Source: Candidatus Planktophila lacus (lineage in GTDB: Bacteria > Pseudomonadota > Gammaproteobacteria > Steroidobacterales > Steroidobacteraceae). Taken from it: 64,000 nt of DNA. The translations under genes were made by a program, and so were the position numbers. Below, piece by piece: positions 38,365-46,435 of this stretch. Location of the stretch: positions 1 through 64,000 of the forward strand of contig CALQLF020000004.1 of NCBI GenBank assembly GCA_943331345.2, given 5' to 3'. The notes beneath the pieces were generated by a model. It searched no databases and was not told the origin of the DNA. It saw nothing but the letters and a program-made list of their open reading frames with translations. The first letter of the stretch is position 1. Each line of letters begins with the position of its first letter.

Positions 38365-39330
38365 CTAGGATAGCGCAGCGAGGCGCGTCGCCACGCGCCG
38401 TGCTCGCGGCACCTGCGGCCAGGCTGCTCCATGGACGCGCAGCGTCCAGGCAAGCCACAGGGCATCAGCCACGCCGCAGGCCAGCAGCAACTCCTGATGG
38501 CTGATGGTGCGCCCACCCGCTGCCGCGTAGGCAGCCAGCAGAGCCTGCCGCTGTTGTCCTGTCAGGTCATGGCTGGTGGCGAACACGGCGAGGTCGTGTA
38601 CAGGTGCACCGGCGCCGGCGTATTCGAAATCCACCAAGCGCAGCGAACCATCGACCGCCTGCAGGATGTTGCCGGCGTGCGGGTCGGAGTGCACCAGCAC
38701 GGGTGAAGACATACTCGCAGTCCCTGAGTCCACGCTCGTGACTTGCCCGATGCTGGTTGTGGTCGGCTCTGTCGCACGCTCCAATGCGTTCAGCATGGCG
38801 CGGTGTGCGGCATTCTGCAGCGTGTCGTGTTCCGGGAATGGTTCAAGTTCCGCGAGGAGTTGTCGCGTAGCGGTCTTTGGATGTAGTGCGGGTAGTCCAG
38901 AAGGTAAGGGTACGGCGTGCAAGCGCGCGGCGAGCGCAGCGAAGGTTTCGAGACCGCGTCGGGCTTGCCGCCAGCGCCACGGCCGGCCTGGCCACCAGTC
39001 GCTGACCAAGATGCCCAGGGCTTCATCGACGTGCACCAGCGTGGGTGCCAGCCCGGCGGCGGCCGCAGCACGATGAGCCTTGGCCTCAGTGGTCAGGTGC
39101 GTCCCAAGCGCAGTACTGTTTTGGCCCGCAAAGCGGACGAACCAGTGCTGTAGGCCTTCCGGTGTTTCCCCGGTCACCCGCACACGCAGGTTCACTTCTC
39201 CGCCCGCCAGCCCACGCCAGCGCAGCTTGCGTGCCGCCGCCATTGCAGGCGGCAACTCGCTGCCTGCCATCCACGCGCGGAAATCGTCGAGACGCGGATG
39301 CGAAGGGTTCACGGTAGTTGCTTGCGCCAT
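38365..39330 (-). CDS. APH-family kinase, predicted thiamine kinase-like
   Basis: This 321-residue protein has the aminoglycoside phosphotransferase/choline-kinase fold: HSDPHAGNIL is the catalytic loop (HxDxxxxN) near residue 215 and LVDFEYA is the metal-binding motif. The N-lobe includes RFAGQNS and the acidic partner of the ATP Lys. Its start overlaps the PnuC-family gene by 22 bases, in an operon with a TPP riboswitch. So I infer thiamine kinase (thiamine to thiamine phosphate), trapping the imported vitamin. APH proteins also phosphorylate other alcohols, so this is a context-based call. Confidence 0.75.
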   Translation of the reverse strand: MAQATTVNPSHPRLDDFRAWMAGSELPPAMAAARKLRWRGLAGGEVNLRVRVTGETPEGLQHWFVRFAGQNSTALGTHLTTEAKAHRAAAAAGLAPTLVHVDEALGILVSDWWPGRPWRWRQARRGLETFAALAARLHAVPLPSGLPALHPKTATRQLLAELEPFPEHDTLQNAAHRAMLNALERATEPTTTSIGQVTSVDSGTASMSSPVLVHSDPHAGNILQAVDGSLRLVDFEYAGAGAPVHDLAVFATSHDLTGQQRQALLAAYAAAGGRTISHQELLLACGVADALWLAWTLRVHGAAWPQVPRARRVATRLAALS

Positions 39331-39932
39331 TCACGCCAGCCAAGCACAGCCAGCACTGCATAAGCCAGATACAAGCCGGCGGTGGGGTGCAGGTTGGCTT
39401 GCCAGTAAAGCCAAGCGGTAGCCACGTTGATGACCACCCACCAACTCCAGTTGTCGAGCAGTTTGCGGGTGGCCAGCCAAGTGGCCACCAAGCCGCCGGC
39501 GGTGGTGGCAGCTTCTAGCCAAGGCTGCGCTGAGCCGCTAGCGACCAGCAGTTCGTAGCCGACGAGGGTCAGCAATCCGGTGAAGGCGAGGGCGGCTATG
39601 GTGTTGCGCACCCCTAAGCGATGCACCCTCAGCACGGTGGGTGCGGCAGGTTCGGTTGCTGCGTTCTTGGCTGCATCGTGCAACCGCTCGGCGTTCGCGA
39701 CGGCTGGCGCCCGCCGCCACTGCCGCCAGCCCACCACGGCGAGCACTGCGTAAACCACTTGCAACGCGCCCTGCAGCCATAGCCCGGCCACCTGACACAA
39801 CACGCCGTAAGCCAGCGTGGACAGTAGGCCGGCGATCCAGCAGTGGCGCTGCCCGCGAATGGCCAGCACCACGTAGCACAGCCCTGCTACAACAGCGAAG
39901 GCCTCGAGCCAAGTTTGCCAGGTCGTGGGCAT
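39309..39932 (-). CDS. pnuT: PnuC-family vitamin transporter, predicted thiamine permease (PnuT)
   Basis: This 207-residue membrane protein has six to seven predicted spans and the PnuC family motif NWSWWVVINV near residue 160. The start ATG is two bases after the TonB receptor stop. PnuC proteins carry nicotinamide riboside, PnuT proteins thiamine; they look alike. The TPP riboswitch upstream, the TonB receptor and the kinase point to thiamine (PnuT). It is a facilitator, so phosphorylation by the next gene would make uptake one-way. A loop of about 35 residues rich in Ala/Arg (residues 70-110) is unusually long. Confidence 0.8.
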   Translation of the reverse strand: MPTTWQTWLEAFAVVAGLCYVVLAIRGQRHCWIAGLLSTLAYGVLCQVAGLWLQGALQVVYAVLAVVGWRQWRRAPAVANAERLHDAAKNAATEPAAPTVLRVHRLGVRNTIAALAFTGLLTLVGYELLVASGSAQPWLEAATTAGGLVATWLATRKLLDNWSWWVVINVATAWLYWQANLHPTAGLYLAYAVLAVLGWREWRKQLP

Positions 39933-39933
39933 A

Positions 39934-42042
39934 TCAGAACCGCCAGCGCAGCGTCACGCCGCCTTCGCGCGGGTCGCCTAGCTGCGTGTACAGCTTCTCG
40001 GCGAAGTCGGGGGGTTCATTGCCGAAGGAGAAGCCGCGTACCGTGTATTGCCGGTTCAGGGCATTGCGCACATAGAGCCCCGCTTCCAGCTTTTCGCTGC
40101 GCCAACCGGCTTGCAGACCAAGCAGTGAATAAGCGTGCGAGCGGAAGTGTTCTGGCACGTTGCCGAAATAGAACGCATCCATGCCCGTGAAGTCGAGGCG
40201 CGCATGGAAGCCCGCCGGGTTCTGCCAGGCGAGATGCGTGGCGAACTGCCAGCGCGGTGCGTGGGGCGCGTCACGTGTGGGTAGCGCGGTGCCATCGCGA
40301 ACCACGCCGGCCAGTTCTGCGCGCAACAGACCTAGCGACAGGCCAGCTTCCAGTTCTGTCGTGGGGCGCCAGCGCAGGCTCGTCTCCAAGCCACGATGGT
40401 GACCGCTCGCGGCGTTATCCGTGAAGAACACGAAGGTGTTCGGGTCGCCCGCTACCAGTTGTTCGTTCGTGCGAACTTGCAAGTGTTGGCGGCGCAGGTC
40501 GAAGAGTACCGCTTCGGCTTGCCAGCGCTCATCTTCGCTGGAGCGGCGCCAACCTATCTCCAGACCGCGCACGCTTTCCGGGCCAAACTCGCGAAGCCGC
40601 GCAGGCAACTGCGGGCTGGGGTTCACACCGCCCGCCTTGTAGCCCCGCGAGGCGCTGAGCCAAAGCGTGCCGTAATCGCCTGGGCGCGACAGCGTGAAAT
40701 GTCCGCCACTCTGGGTGTTCGTCGGCGAGAGCGTGGTATCGCTGGCCACGAAATCTGCCGCACGACGTTCATGACGCAGACCGAGGCTCGCCTGCCAACC
40801 AGCAGGTAGTGCGGCGTCCACTTGCCCGAACACGGCAGTCGTGTTGGCGCTGTAGCGGCTGGTGCCGGCGAAGTCGCTCGTGAATACATCGGGGTAGACC
40901 GGGTCGGCGTAGATGCCGCCGCTGCGCTCCCTGATGCTCTCGCGCAGTTGTGAATGCCAAGCGCCCACCAACCACGCGAACCGGCGGTCATCCAACAGCG
41001 CCGGTGATTCGAGCCGGGCTTCGAACGTGGTGTTCTGCCGGTCTCGATTCGCCTGGTACGTGTAGTCATAGGTGTAGGGTGCCCAGGAACTGGCGTTACC
41101 CCAGTCTCCGTCGTAGGCATGCACGCTGTGCGAATCGATGTGTGCTGCAGCCAGTGACCACTTCGCTTCGCCCGGCCCCGGCAACAATGCGCGCACGCTG
41201 ATGCCTGTGGCGCGCTGTGCATCGCGGCCGGGTTTATCCGAAAGCGTAGTGCGTGTGTTGTCGATGGCGAAGGCGTCGTAGCGGTTGTCGAGGTCCGCAT
41301 GCAGTACTGTCACGTCGACTTGGTGCTCGTCGTCGTAGTTCCACTGCCAACGCGCTCGTGCCGTGGTTTCGTTGCGGCCATTGGTGTCGTTGCGGCCCAG
41401 AAAGGCATTGCGACGGAAGCCATCGCTGCGCTGTTGCTGCACACCCAAGCGCAAAGCGGAATTCGCGCCGGTGGCTAAGTCGTAGACCGCGCCGGCGCCG
41501 TACGTGCCGGCAGTACCAAGCGTTGCCGATACTTCACCGCTATCGGACCCTTCCGGTGCACGGCTGGAAACATTGATGAGCCCACCGAGGGCATTAGCGC
41601 CATAGCGCGCGCCCTGCGGGCCACGCAGCACTTCAATCTGCCCTACATCGAACAGGGTGGCGACCATGCCGAGGCCACTGAAGTCCATGCCGTCGACCAG
41701 AAAGCCGACGGACGGATTGGGGGCGCCCTCGTACTGTTCCAGTTCGCCGATCCCGCGTACCTGGAAGTAGCGCGGCCGCGAACTCGCGCCGGCGAAGTTC
41801 AAATTGGGCACTTGGGCCATGGCGTCGGCGAAGTGCTGGGCACCCGGTGCTTGCAGGGTGGTTTGGTCGAGCACAACCGCACTGGCGGCGAGCTTGTTGG
41901 CCGGCGTGCGGCGCAGGCTGGCGACAATAATGACTTCGCCTTCCGCGGCTAACACTGGGGTGGGGTTGGCGGCGACTATGGGCGCAGCGAAGGCGCTGAG
42001 CAGGGCCCCGACGATGGCTCTGGATAAACGGAACAAGGACAA
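39934..42042 (-). CDS. TonB-dependent outer-membrane receptor, predicted thiamine receptor
   Basis: This 702-residue protein has a signal peptide (AIVGALLSAFAAPIVAA), a plug domain (VVLDQTTLQ, GPQGARYGANALGGLIN near residue 150) and a beta barrel ending LRWRF, with terminal Phe as expected for BAM recognition. The start is TTG at 42042: GGGAG lies six bases upstream, and no ATG is available. This Shine-Dalgarno lies in a hairpin downstream of the TPP aptamer. Together with PnuT and the kinase this predicts active thiamine import. Confidence 0.88.
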   Translation of the reverse strand: MSLFRLSRAIVGALLSAFAAPIVAANPTPVLAAEGEVIIVASLRRTPANKLAASAVVLDQTTLQAPGAQHFADAMAQVPNLNFAGASSRPRYFQVRGIGELEQYEGAPNPSVGFLVDGMDFSGLGMVATLFDVGQIEVLRGPQGARYGANALGGLINVSSRAPEGSDSGEVSATLGTAGTYGAGAVYDLATGANSALRLGVQQQRSDGFRRNAFLGRNDTNGRNETTARARWQWNYDDEHQVDVTVLHADLDNRYDAFAIDNTRTTLSDKPGRDAQRATGISVRALLPGPGEAKWSLAAAHIDSHSVHAYDGDWGNASSWAPYTYDYTYQANRDRQNTTFEARLESPALLDDRRFAWLVGAWHSQLRESIRERSGGIYADPVYPDVFTSDFAGTSRYSANTTAVFGQVDAALPAGWQASLGLRHERRAADFVASDTTLSPTNTQSGGHFTLSRPGDYGTLWLSASRGYKAGGVNPSPQLPARLREFGPESVRGLEIGWRRSSEDERWQAEAVLFDLRRQHLQVRTNEQLVAGDPNTFVFFTDNAASGHHRGLETSLRWRPTTELEAGLSLGLLRAELAGVVRDGTALPTRDAPHAPRWQFATHLAWQNPAGFHARLDFTGMDAFYFGNVPEHFRSHAYSLLGLQAGWRSEKLEAGLYVRNALNRQYTVRGFSFGNEPPDFAEKLYTQLGDPREGGVTLRWRF

Positions 42043-42045
42043 AGC

Positions 42046-42092
42046 GCTCTCCCGAAACGACAACGCCGGCAATGCCGGCGTTGGGGGAGAGC
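42046..42092 (-). promoter_or_regulatory. Ribosome-binding-site sequester hairpin (riboswitch expression platform)
   Basis: On the minus strand GCTCTCCC (42092-42085) is complementary to GGGAGAGC (42053-42046), the latter holding the Shine-Dalgarno of the TTG start. Between them AACGCCGGC and GCCGGCGTT make a 9-bp stem with a 3-base loop. The masking strand can alternatively pair with the 3' strand of aptamer stem P1 (GGGAAGCAG; two 4-bp blocks, one bulge). Pairings were found by eye. Confidence 0.75.
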
Positions 42093-42122
42093 AAGCCAAC
42101 GGAGGAACCCCGGCGGCTGCAC

Positions 42123-42235
42123 CTGCTTCCCTACGCCGGTGCTAACCGGATCAGGTTCAACGGGTTTGCCGGGGTGCGCTGTGCGCGAACCGACATCTCG
42201 GGCCTTTCCAGGCCACCCCGAGGTACGGGAAGCAG
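42123..42235 (-). promoter_or_regulatory. TPP (thi-box) riboswitch aptamer
   Basis: Read on the minus strand: stem P1 CTGCTTCCC pairs exactly with GGGAAGCAG at the other end, followed by TCGGGGTGGCC, a CCGAGATG close to the family CUGAGAUG, then GTTGAACCTGATCCGG and GGCGTAGGG, the conserved thi-box 3' half. It lies 80 bases upstream of the receptor start. The T of CUGAGA is C here. Confidence 0.93.
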
Positions 42236-42253
42236 TCTAGCGCAATGCGCGCC

Positions 42254-43060: not shown

Positions 43061-46000
43061 ATGTCTGTGCAGTTCCGTCGCTCGGCGCGTCTTGCCGCTG
43101 CCGTTTCCAGTGTCCTTTCCGCGCCGCTCCTTCTCGGTGGTGCCGCGGTTCTGGGCTTCATGCCCGGCCTGGCCCACGCGCAGGAAACCACCGCGCAGAT
43201 TCTCGGCACCATCACCAGCGCTGAAGGCAAGCCCTTGGCCAATGCCAAGGTCACCATCACGCACGTGCCGTCGGGCACGAAGTCGACTTCGACCACGAAC
43301 GATGCTGGCCGCTTCGGCGCTGGCGGCGTGCGCGTCGGTGGTCCGTTCCGCGTGGAAGTGCAGGCGGAAGGCTATGAAGCCCGCACCGTCGACAACGTCT
43401 TCACCAGCCTCGGCCGTCCGTTCTCACTCGGCGTTTCGCTGAAGGCGACGGAAGTGGTCGGCGAAGTGGAAGTGTCCGCGACGCGTGAAAGCGAAGCGCA
43501 GTTCGGTGTCACGGCGGCCTTCTCGGCCCGCCAGATTGCCAACTCGCCCAGCATCAACCGCGACCTGAAGGACGTGGTCCGCAACGACCCGGCCATCTAT
43601 CTCGACCCGCAGAACGGCAACGCCATCTCCATCGCCGGCCAGAACAACCGCTTCAACAGCCTCACCGTCGACGGCGTGAAGCAGAACGACGACTTCGGCC
43701 TGAACGGTTCGGGCTATGCCACCAACCGCTCGCCCATCTCGCTGGATGCGGTGCAGAGCCTGTCGGTGCTCACCTCGCCCTACGATACGCAGTACTCGGG
43801 CTTCCAGGGTGGCGCCATCAACGTCGTCACGAAGTCCGGCACCAACGACTTCCACGGCTCGGCGTACTACTACTACAACGACGACAGCATGGCCGGTTCC
43901 AAGACCAAGGACCGCACCGGGCTGACGCCGTACAAGAGCATCCGGCTCACCTTCGAAGAGAAGAGCTACGGCGCCACCATCGGCGGCCCGATCATCCAAG
44001 ACAAGCTGTTCTTCTTCGCTAACTACGAGAAGTTCGAGCGTACCGCGCCGGTGGACATCGGGCCGGCCGGCTCCAGCCTGCCCACCAAGCTGGTGGCCCC
44101 GACGCAGGCGGAATACGACTCTGTCGTCGCCGCTGCCAAGGCCACCTACAACTTCGACGCTCTCGCTATCCCGAACTCCGTTCCCGAGCAGAGCGAGAAG
44201 ATGTTGGTGAACCTTGACTGGAACATCAACGACAACCACCGCGTGCGCTACAGCTACCAGCGCACCGAGGACTTCGACGTTTCGGGCTACGGCACTAGCG
44301 CCACCAGCCGTTCGTTCGTTTCGCCCTCGCAGTGGTACGAGCGTGGTTACAAGCTCGACCAGCAGGTGGTGCAGGTGTTCTCCACTTGGACCGACGCCTT
44401 CTCGACCGAATTCAAGTATGCCAAGAAGAAGGTGGCGAACCGCCAGGAGCCGCTGGGTGGCGACACCTTCGCGCAGATGACCATCAACGGGTTTGCTAAT
44501 GGCGGCTCCGTGGTCATCGGCCCGGATATCTCGCGCCACGCCAACAAGCTGCGCAACCAGACGGAGCAGTGGAAGCTCAAGGCGAACTACCTGCTCGGCG
44601 ACCACACCCTGTCGGCCGGCCTCGAGCGCGAGACGCTCGACGTGTTCAATATCTTCGTGCAGAACGCGCAGGGTTCGTACATCTTCAACAACCTCGCAGA
44701 CTTCACCAACCGCCGCGCGGCTTCGTTCAGCTACACCAACTCGGTGCTGTCGAACCCGAACAACCCGGATGACGCCGCAGCTCTCTTTGGCTTCACCAAC
44801 ACTGCCCTGTACCTGCAGGACCGTTGGCAAGCCGCGGAAGACCTGCTCGTCACGTACGGCGTGCGCGCTGAACGTTTCACCTCCAGCGATTCGCCGCGTC
44901 CGAACCCGGGCTTCCTGAGCCGCTACGGCTTCAACAGCAACGATACGCTGGATGGTCGCAAGCTCATCAGCCCGCGTATCGGCTTCGAGTGGAACTGGCG
45001 TGAGGACACGCAGGTTCACGGCGGCATCGGCCTGTTCGGTGGTGGTACGCCGAACGTCTGGATCAGCAACAGCTTCAGCAACGACGGTGTCGTGCTGTCC
45101 AGCCAGAGCATCTCTCGTCCCGCCAGCCCGACTGCCGTACTCACACCGCTGCAGTTGGCGGCGCTGAATGACTTCAACGGCTTCGATATTCCGTCCGCCG
45201 TGCAGGCGCAGCAAACGACGCTGGCTGGTGCCGGTACGGTCAACGCCCTGGCCCCGAACTTCAAGATTCCGAGCAGCTGGAAGTACACCTTGGGTGTCGA
45301 CCACGAGACGGACATCCTGGGCTTTGGCAAGGACTGGAAGCTGTCTGCCGAACTGCAGTACACCAAGGTGAAAAATGCCGTGCTCTGGCAGGACCTGCGC
45401 CTCGTGCCGGTCGGCACTCTGCAGGATGGCCGCACGCGCTACAACTACGTGGCGACGGACCGTCCGTATACGGTTAACGCCGCGACGGGCCTGTACACCA
45501 CCACGTCTAACGTGCGTGGCTCGGGCATCAACGACATGCTCCTGACCAACACCAACCAGGGCAAGAGCTCGGTGTTGTCGTTGGAAGCGGCCAAGACTTG
45601 GGATATGCCCTACGGCAAGATCGACTTCTCGCTGGGCTATGCCTACACGCGTGCCAAGGACGTCAGCCCGGCGACTAGCTCCGTTGCCCTGTCGAACTGG
45701 GACAACATGGCCACGTCTGACGTGAACCACCCGGAACTGGCCACTTCGAACTACGAAGTGCGTCATCGCTTCCCGCTGCGCTTGAGCTGGCGCAAGAACC
45801 TGTTCGGCGACAACGAGACTGCCGTGAACCTGTTCATGGAGCGTCGTGCGGGTCTCCCGTTCAGCTTCACGTTCGCGGGCACGGCTTCGGGTCTTACCGG
45901 TACGGCGGCGGACGTGGCCGCGCTGAACGTCTTTGGTGACCCGCGTCAGGACAACCGCTTCCGTCAGCTGTTCTACGTGCCGAACGGCCCGACGGACGTG

Positions 46001-46435
46001 CTGTTCTCCTCTGCCACCGCGACCGGCCTGAACTGGGCGCTGCTGGATACGTGGATTACGGCGAACGGCCTCGACAAGTACCGTGGCAAGATTGCGCCGC
46101 GCAATGCCTTCCGCAGCCCGTGGCTCACCACGGCTGACCTGCAGCTCCGTCAGGAACTGCCGGGCTTCGGCGAAGGGCACAAGGGCGTGCTCACCATCGA
46201 CATCCTGAACTTCGCCAACATGCTCAACAAGAAGTGGGGCAACTATGGCCAGGTCGGGTTCCCGTACACGGTCGCTCCGGTGGGCGTGGAAGGCATCGAT
46301 GCGGCCACGGGCAAGTACATCTACCGTGGTTTGTCGAACGTTGCTGCCACCGGCATCGGCAATGTTGCCCTGAACTCCAACCCGCCCCAGCAGTCGCTGT
46401 GGCGCGTCCAGGTGGGTCTGCGTTACGAGTTCTGA
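43061..46435 (+). CDS. Oar-like TonB-dependent receptor with N-terminal CarboxypepD_reg domain
   Basis: This 1124-residue outer-membrane protein has a signal peptide ending AHA (about residue 40), a carboxypeptidase-regulatory-like beta sandwich (QILGTITSAEGKPLANAKVTI, about 47-130), a plug (RNDPAIYLDPQNG, GFQGGAINVVTKSGTNDFHG) and a long beta barrel whose final residue is Phe (VGLRYEF). Oar-type receptors import or secrete proteins/peptides; in Bacteroidetes and Myxobacteria the family is linked to peptidase substrates. Its codon use is strongly G/C-ending and differs from the neighbouring genes, consistent with high expression. A strong terminator follows it. Confidence 0.93.
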   Translation: MSVQFRRSARLAAAVSSVLSAPLLLGGAAVLGFMPGLAHAQETTAQILGTITSAEGKPLANAKVTITHVPSGTKSTSTTNDAGRFGAGGVRVGGPFRVEVQAEGYEARTVDNVFTSLGRPFSLGVSLKATEVVGEVEVSATRESEAQFGVTAAFSARQIANSPSINRDLKDVVRNDPAIYLDPQNGNAISIAGQNNRFNSLTVDGVKQNDDFGLNGSGYATNRSPISLDAVQSLSVLTSPYDTQYSGFQGGAINVVTKSGTNDFHGSAYYYYNDDSMAGSKTKDRTGLTPYKSIRLTFEEKSYGATIGGPIIQDKLFFFANYEKFERTAPVDIGPAGSSLPTKLVAPTQAEYDSVVAAAKATYNFDALAIPNSVPEQSEKMLVNLDWNINDNHRVRYSYQRTEDFDVSGYGTSATSRSFVSPSQWYERGYKLDQQVVQVFSTWTDAFSTEFKYAKKKVANRQEPLGGDTFAQMTINGFANGGSVVIGPDISRHANKLRNQTEQWKLKANYLLGDHTLSAGLERETLDVFNIFVQNAQGSYIFNNLADFTNRRAASFSYTNSVLSNPNNPDDAAALFGFTNTALYLQDRWQAAEDLLVTYGVRAERFTSSDSPRPNPGFLSRYGFNSNDTLDGRKLISPRIGFEWNWREDTQVHGGIGLFGGGTPNVWISNSFSNDGVVLSSQSISRPASPTAVLTPLQLAALNDFNGFDIPSAVQAQQTTLAGAGTVNALAPNFKIPSSWKYTLGVDHETDILGFGKDWKLSAELQYTKVKNAVLWQDLRLVPVGTLQDGRTRYNYVATDRPYTVNAATGLYTTTSNVRGSGINDMLLTNTNQGKSSVLSLEAAKTWDMPYGKIDFSLGYAYTRAKDVSPATSSVALSNWDNMATSDVNHPELATSNYEVRHRFPLRLSWRKNLFGDNETAVNLFMERRAGLPFSFTFAGTASGLTGTAADVAALNVFGDPRQDNRFRQLFYVPNGPTDVLFSSATATGLNWALLDTWITANGLDKYRGKIAPRNAFRSPWLTTADLQLRQELPGFGEGHKGVLTIDILNFANMLNKKWGNYGQVGFPYTVAPVGVEGIDAATGKYIYRGLSNVAATGIGNVALNSNPPQQSLWRVQVGLRYEF

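Follow-up and report, generated by a model that had tools for sequence, protein, structure and literature searches.

A TPP riboswitch leader ahead of a TonB-dependent receptor operon and a candidate strand exchange at its Shine-Dalgarno sequence

How can a TPP aptamer control translation when the start codon of the regulated gene lies beyond a long inserted hairpin? The question is raised by the minus strand of the window, the 64,000-nucleotide stretch of DNA analyzed here, which carries the only TPP riboswitch found in its genome (RF00059 match of 64.8 bits against a gathering threshold of 54.3; Rfam), an aptamer that the earlier note had already recognized and that direct reading also supports. 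Located 3' of the aptamer on the same strand are tightly packed or overlapping genes for a receptor, a transporter and a kinase (Table 1). The position of the aptamer 5' of thiamine-related genes is shared by relatives, and homologues of the receptor stand behind a TPP aptamer throughout the family. The context suggests that the substrate of the kinase is possibly thiamine. Among four genomes of the genus (G000, G015, G035, and G052, three of them close or near-identical and G015 divergent), ThiC was not detected and no ThiG exceeded the cutoff, the one sub-threshold ThiG match being in the window's genome. The genus is predicted from these searches to be a thiamine auxotroph and, because ThiC is undetectable and ThiG absent above the cutoff, the operon is probably the organism's route of thiamine uptake and salvage. 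TPP-controlled operons of an outer-membrane receptor and PnuT are known from Bacteroidetes as OMthi-pnuT-tnr3 (PMC5613172). The present locus resembles them in placing a TPP riboswitch before a TonB-dependent outer-membrane receptor and PnuT, but differs in its APH-type kinase in Tnr3's place, in its phylum, and in the apparent lack of ThiC in the genus (PMC5613172). A second TonB-type receptor, divergently oriented (43061-46435, plus strand) and with an N-terminal CarboxypepD_reg, is apparently unrelated to the riboswitch.

Table 1. Coordinates of the leader elements and operon genes in the window.
Feature	Position	Strand	Basis or remark
Predicted sigma-70 -10 box TAGACT	42234..42239	-	Position relative to aptamer conserved in relatives
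CTGCTTCCC, the "P1 5' strand" of the earlier note	42227..42235	-	Overlaps -10 box and discriminator
TPP aptamer	42119..42226	-	Rfam span 42111-42230; RF00059; MFE from 42226; CCU/AGG association across relatives
Aptamer 3' half CCGGCGU.A.GGGAAGCA, target of the anti-aptamer strand	42124..42139	-	15-bp duplex
Linker hairpin between aptamer and mask	42094..42118	-	MFE
Switching strand: mask CUUGCUCUCCC and inner 5' arm CAACGCCGGC; partner is aptamer 3' half or SD arm	42074..42095	-	
Inner hairpin CAACGCCGGC-AUU-GCCGGCGUUG	42061..42083	-	In G015, a compensatory double change from A-U to C-G
GGGAGAGC, Shine-Dalgarno and mask partner	42046..42053	-	Reading, shuffles, cross-genome folds
TonB-dependent receptor, TTG start 42042 (alternative TTG 42036)	39934..42042	-	PF07715 Plug 1.2e-15
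PnuC/PnuT-type inner-membrane transporter	39309..39932	-	PF04973 1.5e-41
APH-type kinase, possibly thiamine kinase	38365..39330	-	PF01636 1.8e-18

In TPP riboswitches, a sequestor and antisequestor form the standard translational OFF design (PMC2258182), and direct translation attenuation, in which the Shine-Dalgarno (SD) lies within the aptamer core, has also been described (Barrick and Breaker 2007, PMC2258182). Among 109 loci with an alignable receptor homologue, three of them from other phyla, an in-frame start codon follows right after the aptamer in 89 and is absent in 20, these labels being mechanical, in that a few direct loci (e.g., L150, L171, L175) also have a downstream sequestor and two others (L117, L130) count as direct only via a TTG. 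In the direct type (e.g., L004, L022, L024, L053) an AGGGAG or GGAGG of the aptamer core precedes the start by 4-9 nt and can serve as the SD, a likeness to direct translation attenuation (PMC2258182), and the directly following starts at the 89 loci would fit an SD located in that core. By contrast, the genus of the window has an inserted platform that places the SD outside the aptamer; in the window no start in the receptor frame occurs just after the aptamer, which does not fit direct attenuation. On the receptor tree the direct and non-direct labels require nine changes, of which at least six are forced by well-supported branches.

The same survey returned several further arrangements. In seven loci (L106, L112, L124, L138, L149, L151, L074) the aptamer directly precedes a small protein beginning M-R-(A/S/T)-A-V-(E/D)-I-S-M-Y-P-L, possibly a thiamine-binding (YkoF-like) protein. 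L049 has a 19-codon ORF running from just after the aptamer to a stop that falls a few bases short of the receptor ATG, where translational coupling is possible. In L005 the gene directly behind the TPP aptamer is PnuT-like, and the locus gave no match to the receptor. Two contigs (L155, L161) of a MAG titled "Janthinobacterium lividum" (HRS-ES2-bin-225), a name that may be wrong, carry the genus's receptor with identities of 95% and 81%. Marine MAGs titled Neomarinimicrobiota and Dehalococcoidia (L157, L158, L160) hold receptor relatives of about 30% identity, with the aptamer and then the start directly.

The anatomy of the leader depends on where its RNA begins. When the transcript is taken from 42226, the minimum-free-energy (MFE) structure consists of the canonical aptamer P1-P5, the linker hairpin and the mask-to-SD hairpin, and P1, formed by GUACCU (42226-42221) and AGGUGC (42124-42119), closes the junction. 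In the divergent G015 (L035), a CGCG..CGCG complementarity of different sequence is read where the window has the linker hairpin. The predicted transcription start, about 42226, places the first base in GUACCU, the 5' strand of P1. Among relatives, a 5' CCU is tied to a 3' AGG (79/6 versus 2/37 in a contingency test, the p-value being overstated because the sequences are related). A longest-stem permutation test gives only z = 2.3 for this P1, a low value because the stem is nearly invariant, and the CCU/AGG contingency is the clearer test. The promoter points to the same start: in about 150 leaders aligned on the aptamer, a TANNNT hexamer lies at a near-fixed distance 5' of the invariant aptamer GGGG. 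It is found 10-16 nt upstream of the GGGG in 86/121 leaders of the TBDR (receptor) type and in 31/39 of the thiC type, whereas control bins of equal size give 0-7. The box reads TAAACT, TAAACT, and TACACT in three congeners. A TTGACA-like -35 at a spacing of 16-18 nt from TANNNT is present in 71 of these 117 relatives; in the window itself a clear -35 was not seen, its own being poor on reading.

The earlier note had instead drawn P1 as a pairing of CTGCTTCCC (42235-42227) with GGGAAGCAG (42131-42123). The letters are indeed exactly complementary, and the MFE shows this stem in place of the canonical one when the promoter strand is included in the fold. However, CTGCTTCCC is probably not transcribed, since it begins inside the -10 box and covers the discriminator, and pairing of this type shows no excess over permutation among relatives; the real P1 is GUACCU/AGGUGC.

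Downstream of the aptamer, the 8-bp complementarity that had been noted between GCTCTCCC (42092-42085) and GGGAGAGC (42053-42046) is exact on reading, and the proposed TTG start at 42042 is present. Folding, which the earlier note had suggested as a check on this helix, places a stable hairpin in the MFE; the 83-nt fold of the mask and SD region has z = -4.15, and 0/200 dinucleotide shuffles are as stable. The mask-to-SD hairpin is predicted in all four genus genomes (-33.2, -34.4, -33.2, and -33.6 kcal/mol). The core CUCUCC/GGAGAG is found in the window, G052 and G015, while G035 has a changed mask, in which pairing survives a U-to-G substitution through a slip of one base in register. No compensatory pair occurs inside this core among the four genomes; as far as the letters go, direct covariation evidence covers the inner stem and not the mask:SD core. 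A chance origin of the platform is ruled out by the shuffles together with its retention across genomes, and the inner hairpin is not a dispersed repeat or common terminator motif, its exact palindrome occurring at one site in the genome.

The inner hairpin could also be read as a weak intrinsic terminator, with control partly or wholly transcriptional, given that its 10 GC-rich base pairs are followed by UCGUUUCG and the whole hairpin, by reading, by CUUUGUCCUUGUU. However, the U-tracts after the hairpins are interrupted, and the hairpin ends at the SD with the start codon immediately after it. A terminator scan made no call at the inner hairpin, and transcriptional control of this kind is unlikely.

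The canonical aptamer and the mask:SD helix coexist in the MFE, so that the SD is paired while the aptamer is folded; this supports the TPP-OFF logic put forward earlier, and translational control of the operon in this sense is likely. Opening the SD in the full-length RNA would cost 10.6, 10.5, 10.5, and 8.4 kcal/mol over the four genus genomes, and its probability of being unpaired is about 0.001 in three of them and 0.167 in G035. The identical calculation gives 3.4, 4.8, and 4.8 kcal/mol for E. coli thiM, tbpA, and thiC (probabilities of about 0.36-0.41) and 1.1-5.4 kcal/mol for eight direct-type relatives. Once the SD has been transcribed, the equilibrium fold is OFF with or without TPP. 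The expectation that translation is on without TPP does not hold as it was worded, and any ON state would, in these folds, have to be kinetic or co-transcriptional, because the full-length equilibrium hides the SD even without TPP.

So stable a hairpin might be opened by translation itself. An upstream ORF (GTG 42122, after the aptamer-core AGGGA) reads through the hairpin and beyond TTG 42042, and its GTG occupies the position of the gene's own start in relatives; the platform would then be locked OFF until a ribosome on this ORF melts it, and TPP would hide the upstream SD as in the direct relatives. Against this, the genus conserves neither frame nor stop (in G035 the loss of one base shifts the frame), other relatives of the sequestor type do not retain the starts or stops, and the conservation of AGGUGC is already accounted for by P1. 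With frames, starts, and stops all varying, the ORF was rejected as a conserved coupling element, and ribosome-driven opening has a low probability.

A second pairing of the mask provides the candidate for a switch during transcription. The earlier note had seen the mask pair with the 3' strand of the P1 it named, in two 4-bp blocks with one bulge. This 4+4 bp pairing with GGGAAGCA exists but is incomplete, as it belongs to a longer complementarity in which mask and inner 5' arm combined (CUUGCUCUCCCCCAACGCCGGC) match CCGGCGU (42139-42133) and GGGAAGCA over 15 bp (-25.2 kcal/mol in the window). Competition between aptamer and mask survives in the form that the mask can pair with the aptamer 3' strand, although the P1 originally named was wrong. 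The 15-bp alternative, which would disrupt the aptamer and is mutually exclusive with it, occurs in all four genus genomes at -24.1 to -25.4 kcal/mol; shuffled arms are equally stable in 6, 43, 8, and 1 of 2000 trials each (6/2000 in the window), three of the four genomes not being independent. Correspondingly, the SD arm GCCGGCGUUG...GGGAGAGC resembles CCGGCGUAGGGA-AGC of the aptamer. In length-by-length folds of the ligand-free RNA, which are equilibrium folds of truncated RNAs and not a kinetic simulation, the mask:aptamer pairing prevails at lengths of about 154-160 nt in three genomes and of 165-171 nt in G015, yields when the inner hairpin has been completed, and no longer appears once the SD is present. 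Trapping in the anti-aptamer state is unproven, because the findpath barriers out of it (6.6-22 kcal/mol, upper bounds) are scattered without clear pattern.

Dual complementarity of the mask is also found outside the genus. A CCGGATC-like segment of at least 6 nt, complementary to the aptamer GATCCGG, is present in 17 of the 19 sequestor-type leaders scanned, most individual matches not being significant against shuffles. Judged by complementarity, a mask able to pair also with the aptamer would recur in these leaders, by a different strand. In L038, L170, L172, L046, and further leaders of the sequestor type, the CCGGATC mask is complementary to an SD arm as well as to GATCCGG; in several thiC-type leaders the mask takes the form CTGGATC.

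The aptamer, the mask:SD helix and the alternative duplex are present in sequence and computation and are conserved in the genus; beyond them we infer that TPP binds, that it acts as an OFF signal, that the decision is kinetic, and which start codon is used. The RNA would begin at about 42226 with the 5' strand of P1. Once the nascent aptamer has bound TPP, its 3' half (CCGGCGU..GGGAAGC) would stay committed to P1, P4, P5, and the junction, and the switching strand, left free, would fold onto the SD arm, mask GGGAGAG and repress translation from TTG 42042. If TPP is absent, the switching strand would first pair with the aptamer 3' half over 15 bp and disrupt the aptamer, and the SD may be briefly open to a ribosome as it emerges. 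A decision during transcription is suggested because the final hairpin is so stable, and it is the most likely account, one that has also been argued for E. coli tbpA (PMC11487190). On balance, the riboswitch probably shuts off translation of the thiamine-uptake operon by a choice made kinetically as the RNA is transcribed.

A switch at equilibrium, in which a 9-bp P1 of CTGCTTCCC and GGGAAGCAG competes with the 4+4 bp mask pairing, could draw on the complementary letters and on the fold that includes the promoter strand; it is very improbable, as this stem would place CTGCTTCCC over the conserved -10 box, would consume the P4 GG and junction GA of the aptamer core, has no excess over permutation among relatives, and conflicts with a full-length leader that is OFF at equilibrium. 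Blocked translation may in turn lead to Rho action or mRNA decay, as has been reported for E. coli thiM, thiC, and tbpA (PMC11487190); such an effect would supplement SD masking and not replace it, and is hardly to be expected as the main level of regulation.

The closest parallels to the favored reading, a TPP-OFF switch decided during transcription, are E. coli tbpA (thiB) and thiM, which likewise combine a TPP aptamer, translational OFF control, and competition between the aptamer 3' strand and an SD-masking element (PMC11487190); an anti-P1 has been demonstrated for tbpA (PMC11487190). Unlike in those leaders, the switching strand of the window also supplies one side of an inner hairpin rich in GC, the SD arm looks like the aptamer 3' half, and the SD is closed far more tightly (8-11 versus 3-5 kcal/mol). 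A further and more tentative possibility is that the SD arm mimics the aptamer 3' half, with one strand exchanged between the aptamer and the ribosome site in a kinetic switch, and that this platform is one of several replacements of the commoner SD-inside-aptamer design before the same orthologous receptor.

Both the TPP riboswitch class and the sequestor design were already known, and no earlier description of this leader was found in the open-access literature; what is new is the correction to the anatomy, the candidate strand-exchange design, and the set of leaders for comparison. For the organism, the operon is probably the sole TPP-controlled one in a genus that seems unable to make thiamine. 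For the family, about 110 orthologous receptor leaders, mostly with a direct platform and in a smaller share with inserted sequestors of at least two kinds, would allow the evolution of expression platforms to be studied while the regulated gene stays constant. If the reading as strand exchange and replacement is true, they form a natural series in which the turnover of expression platforms can be followed.
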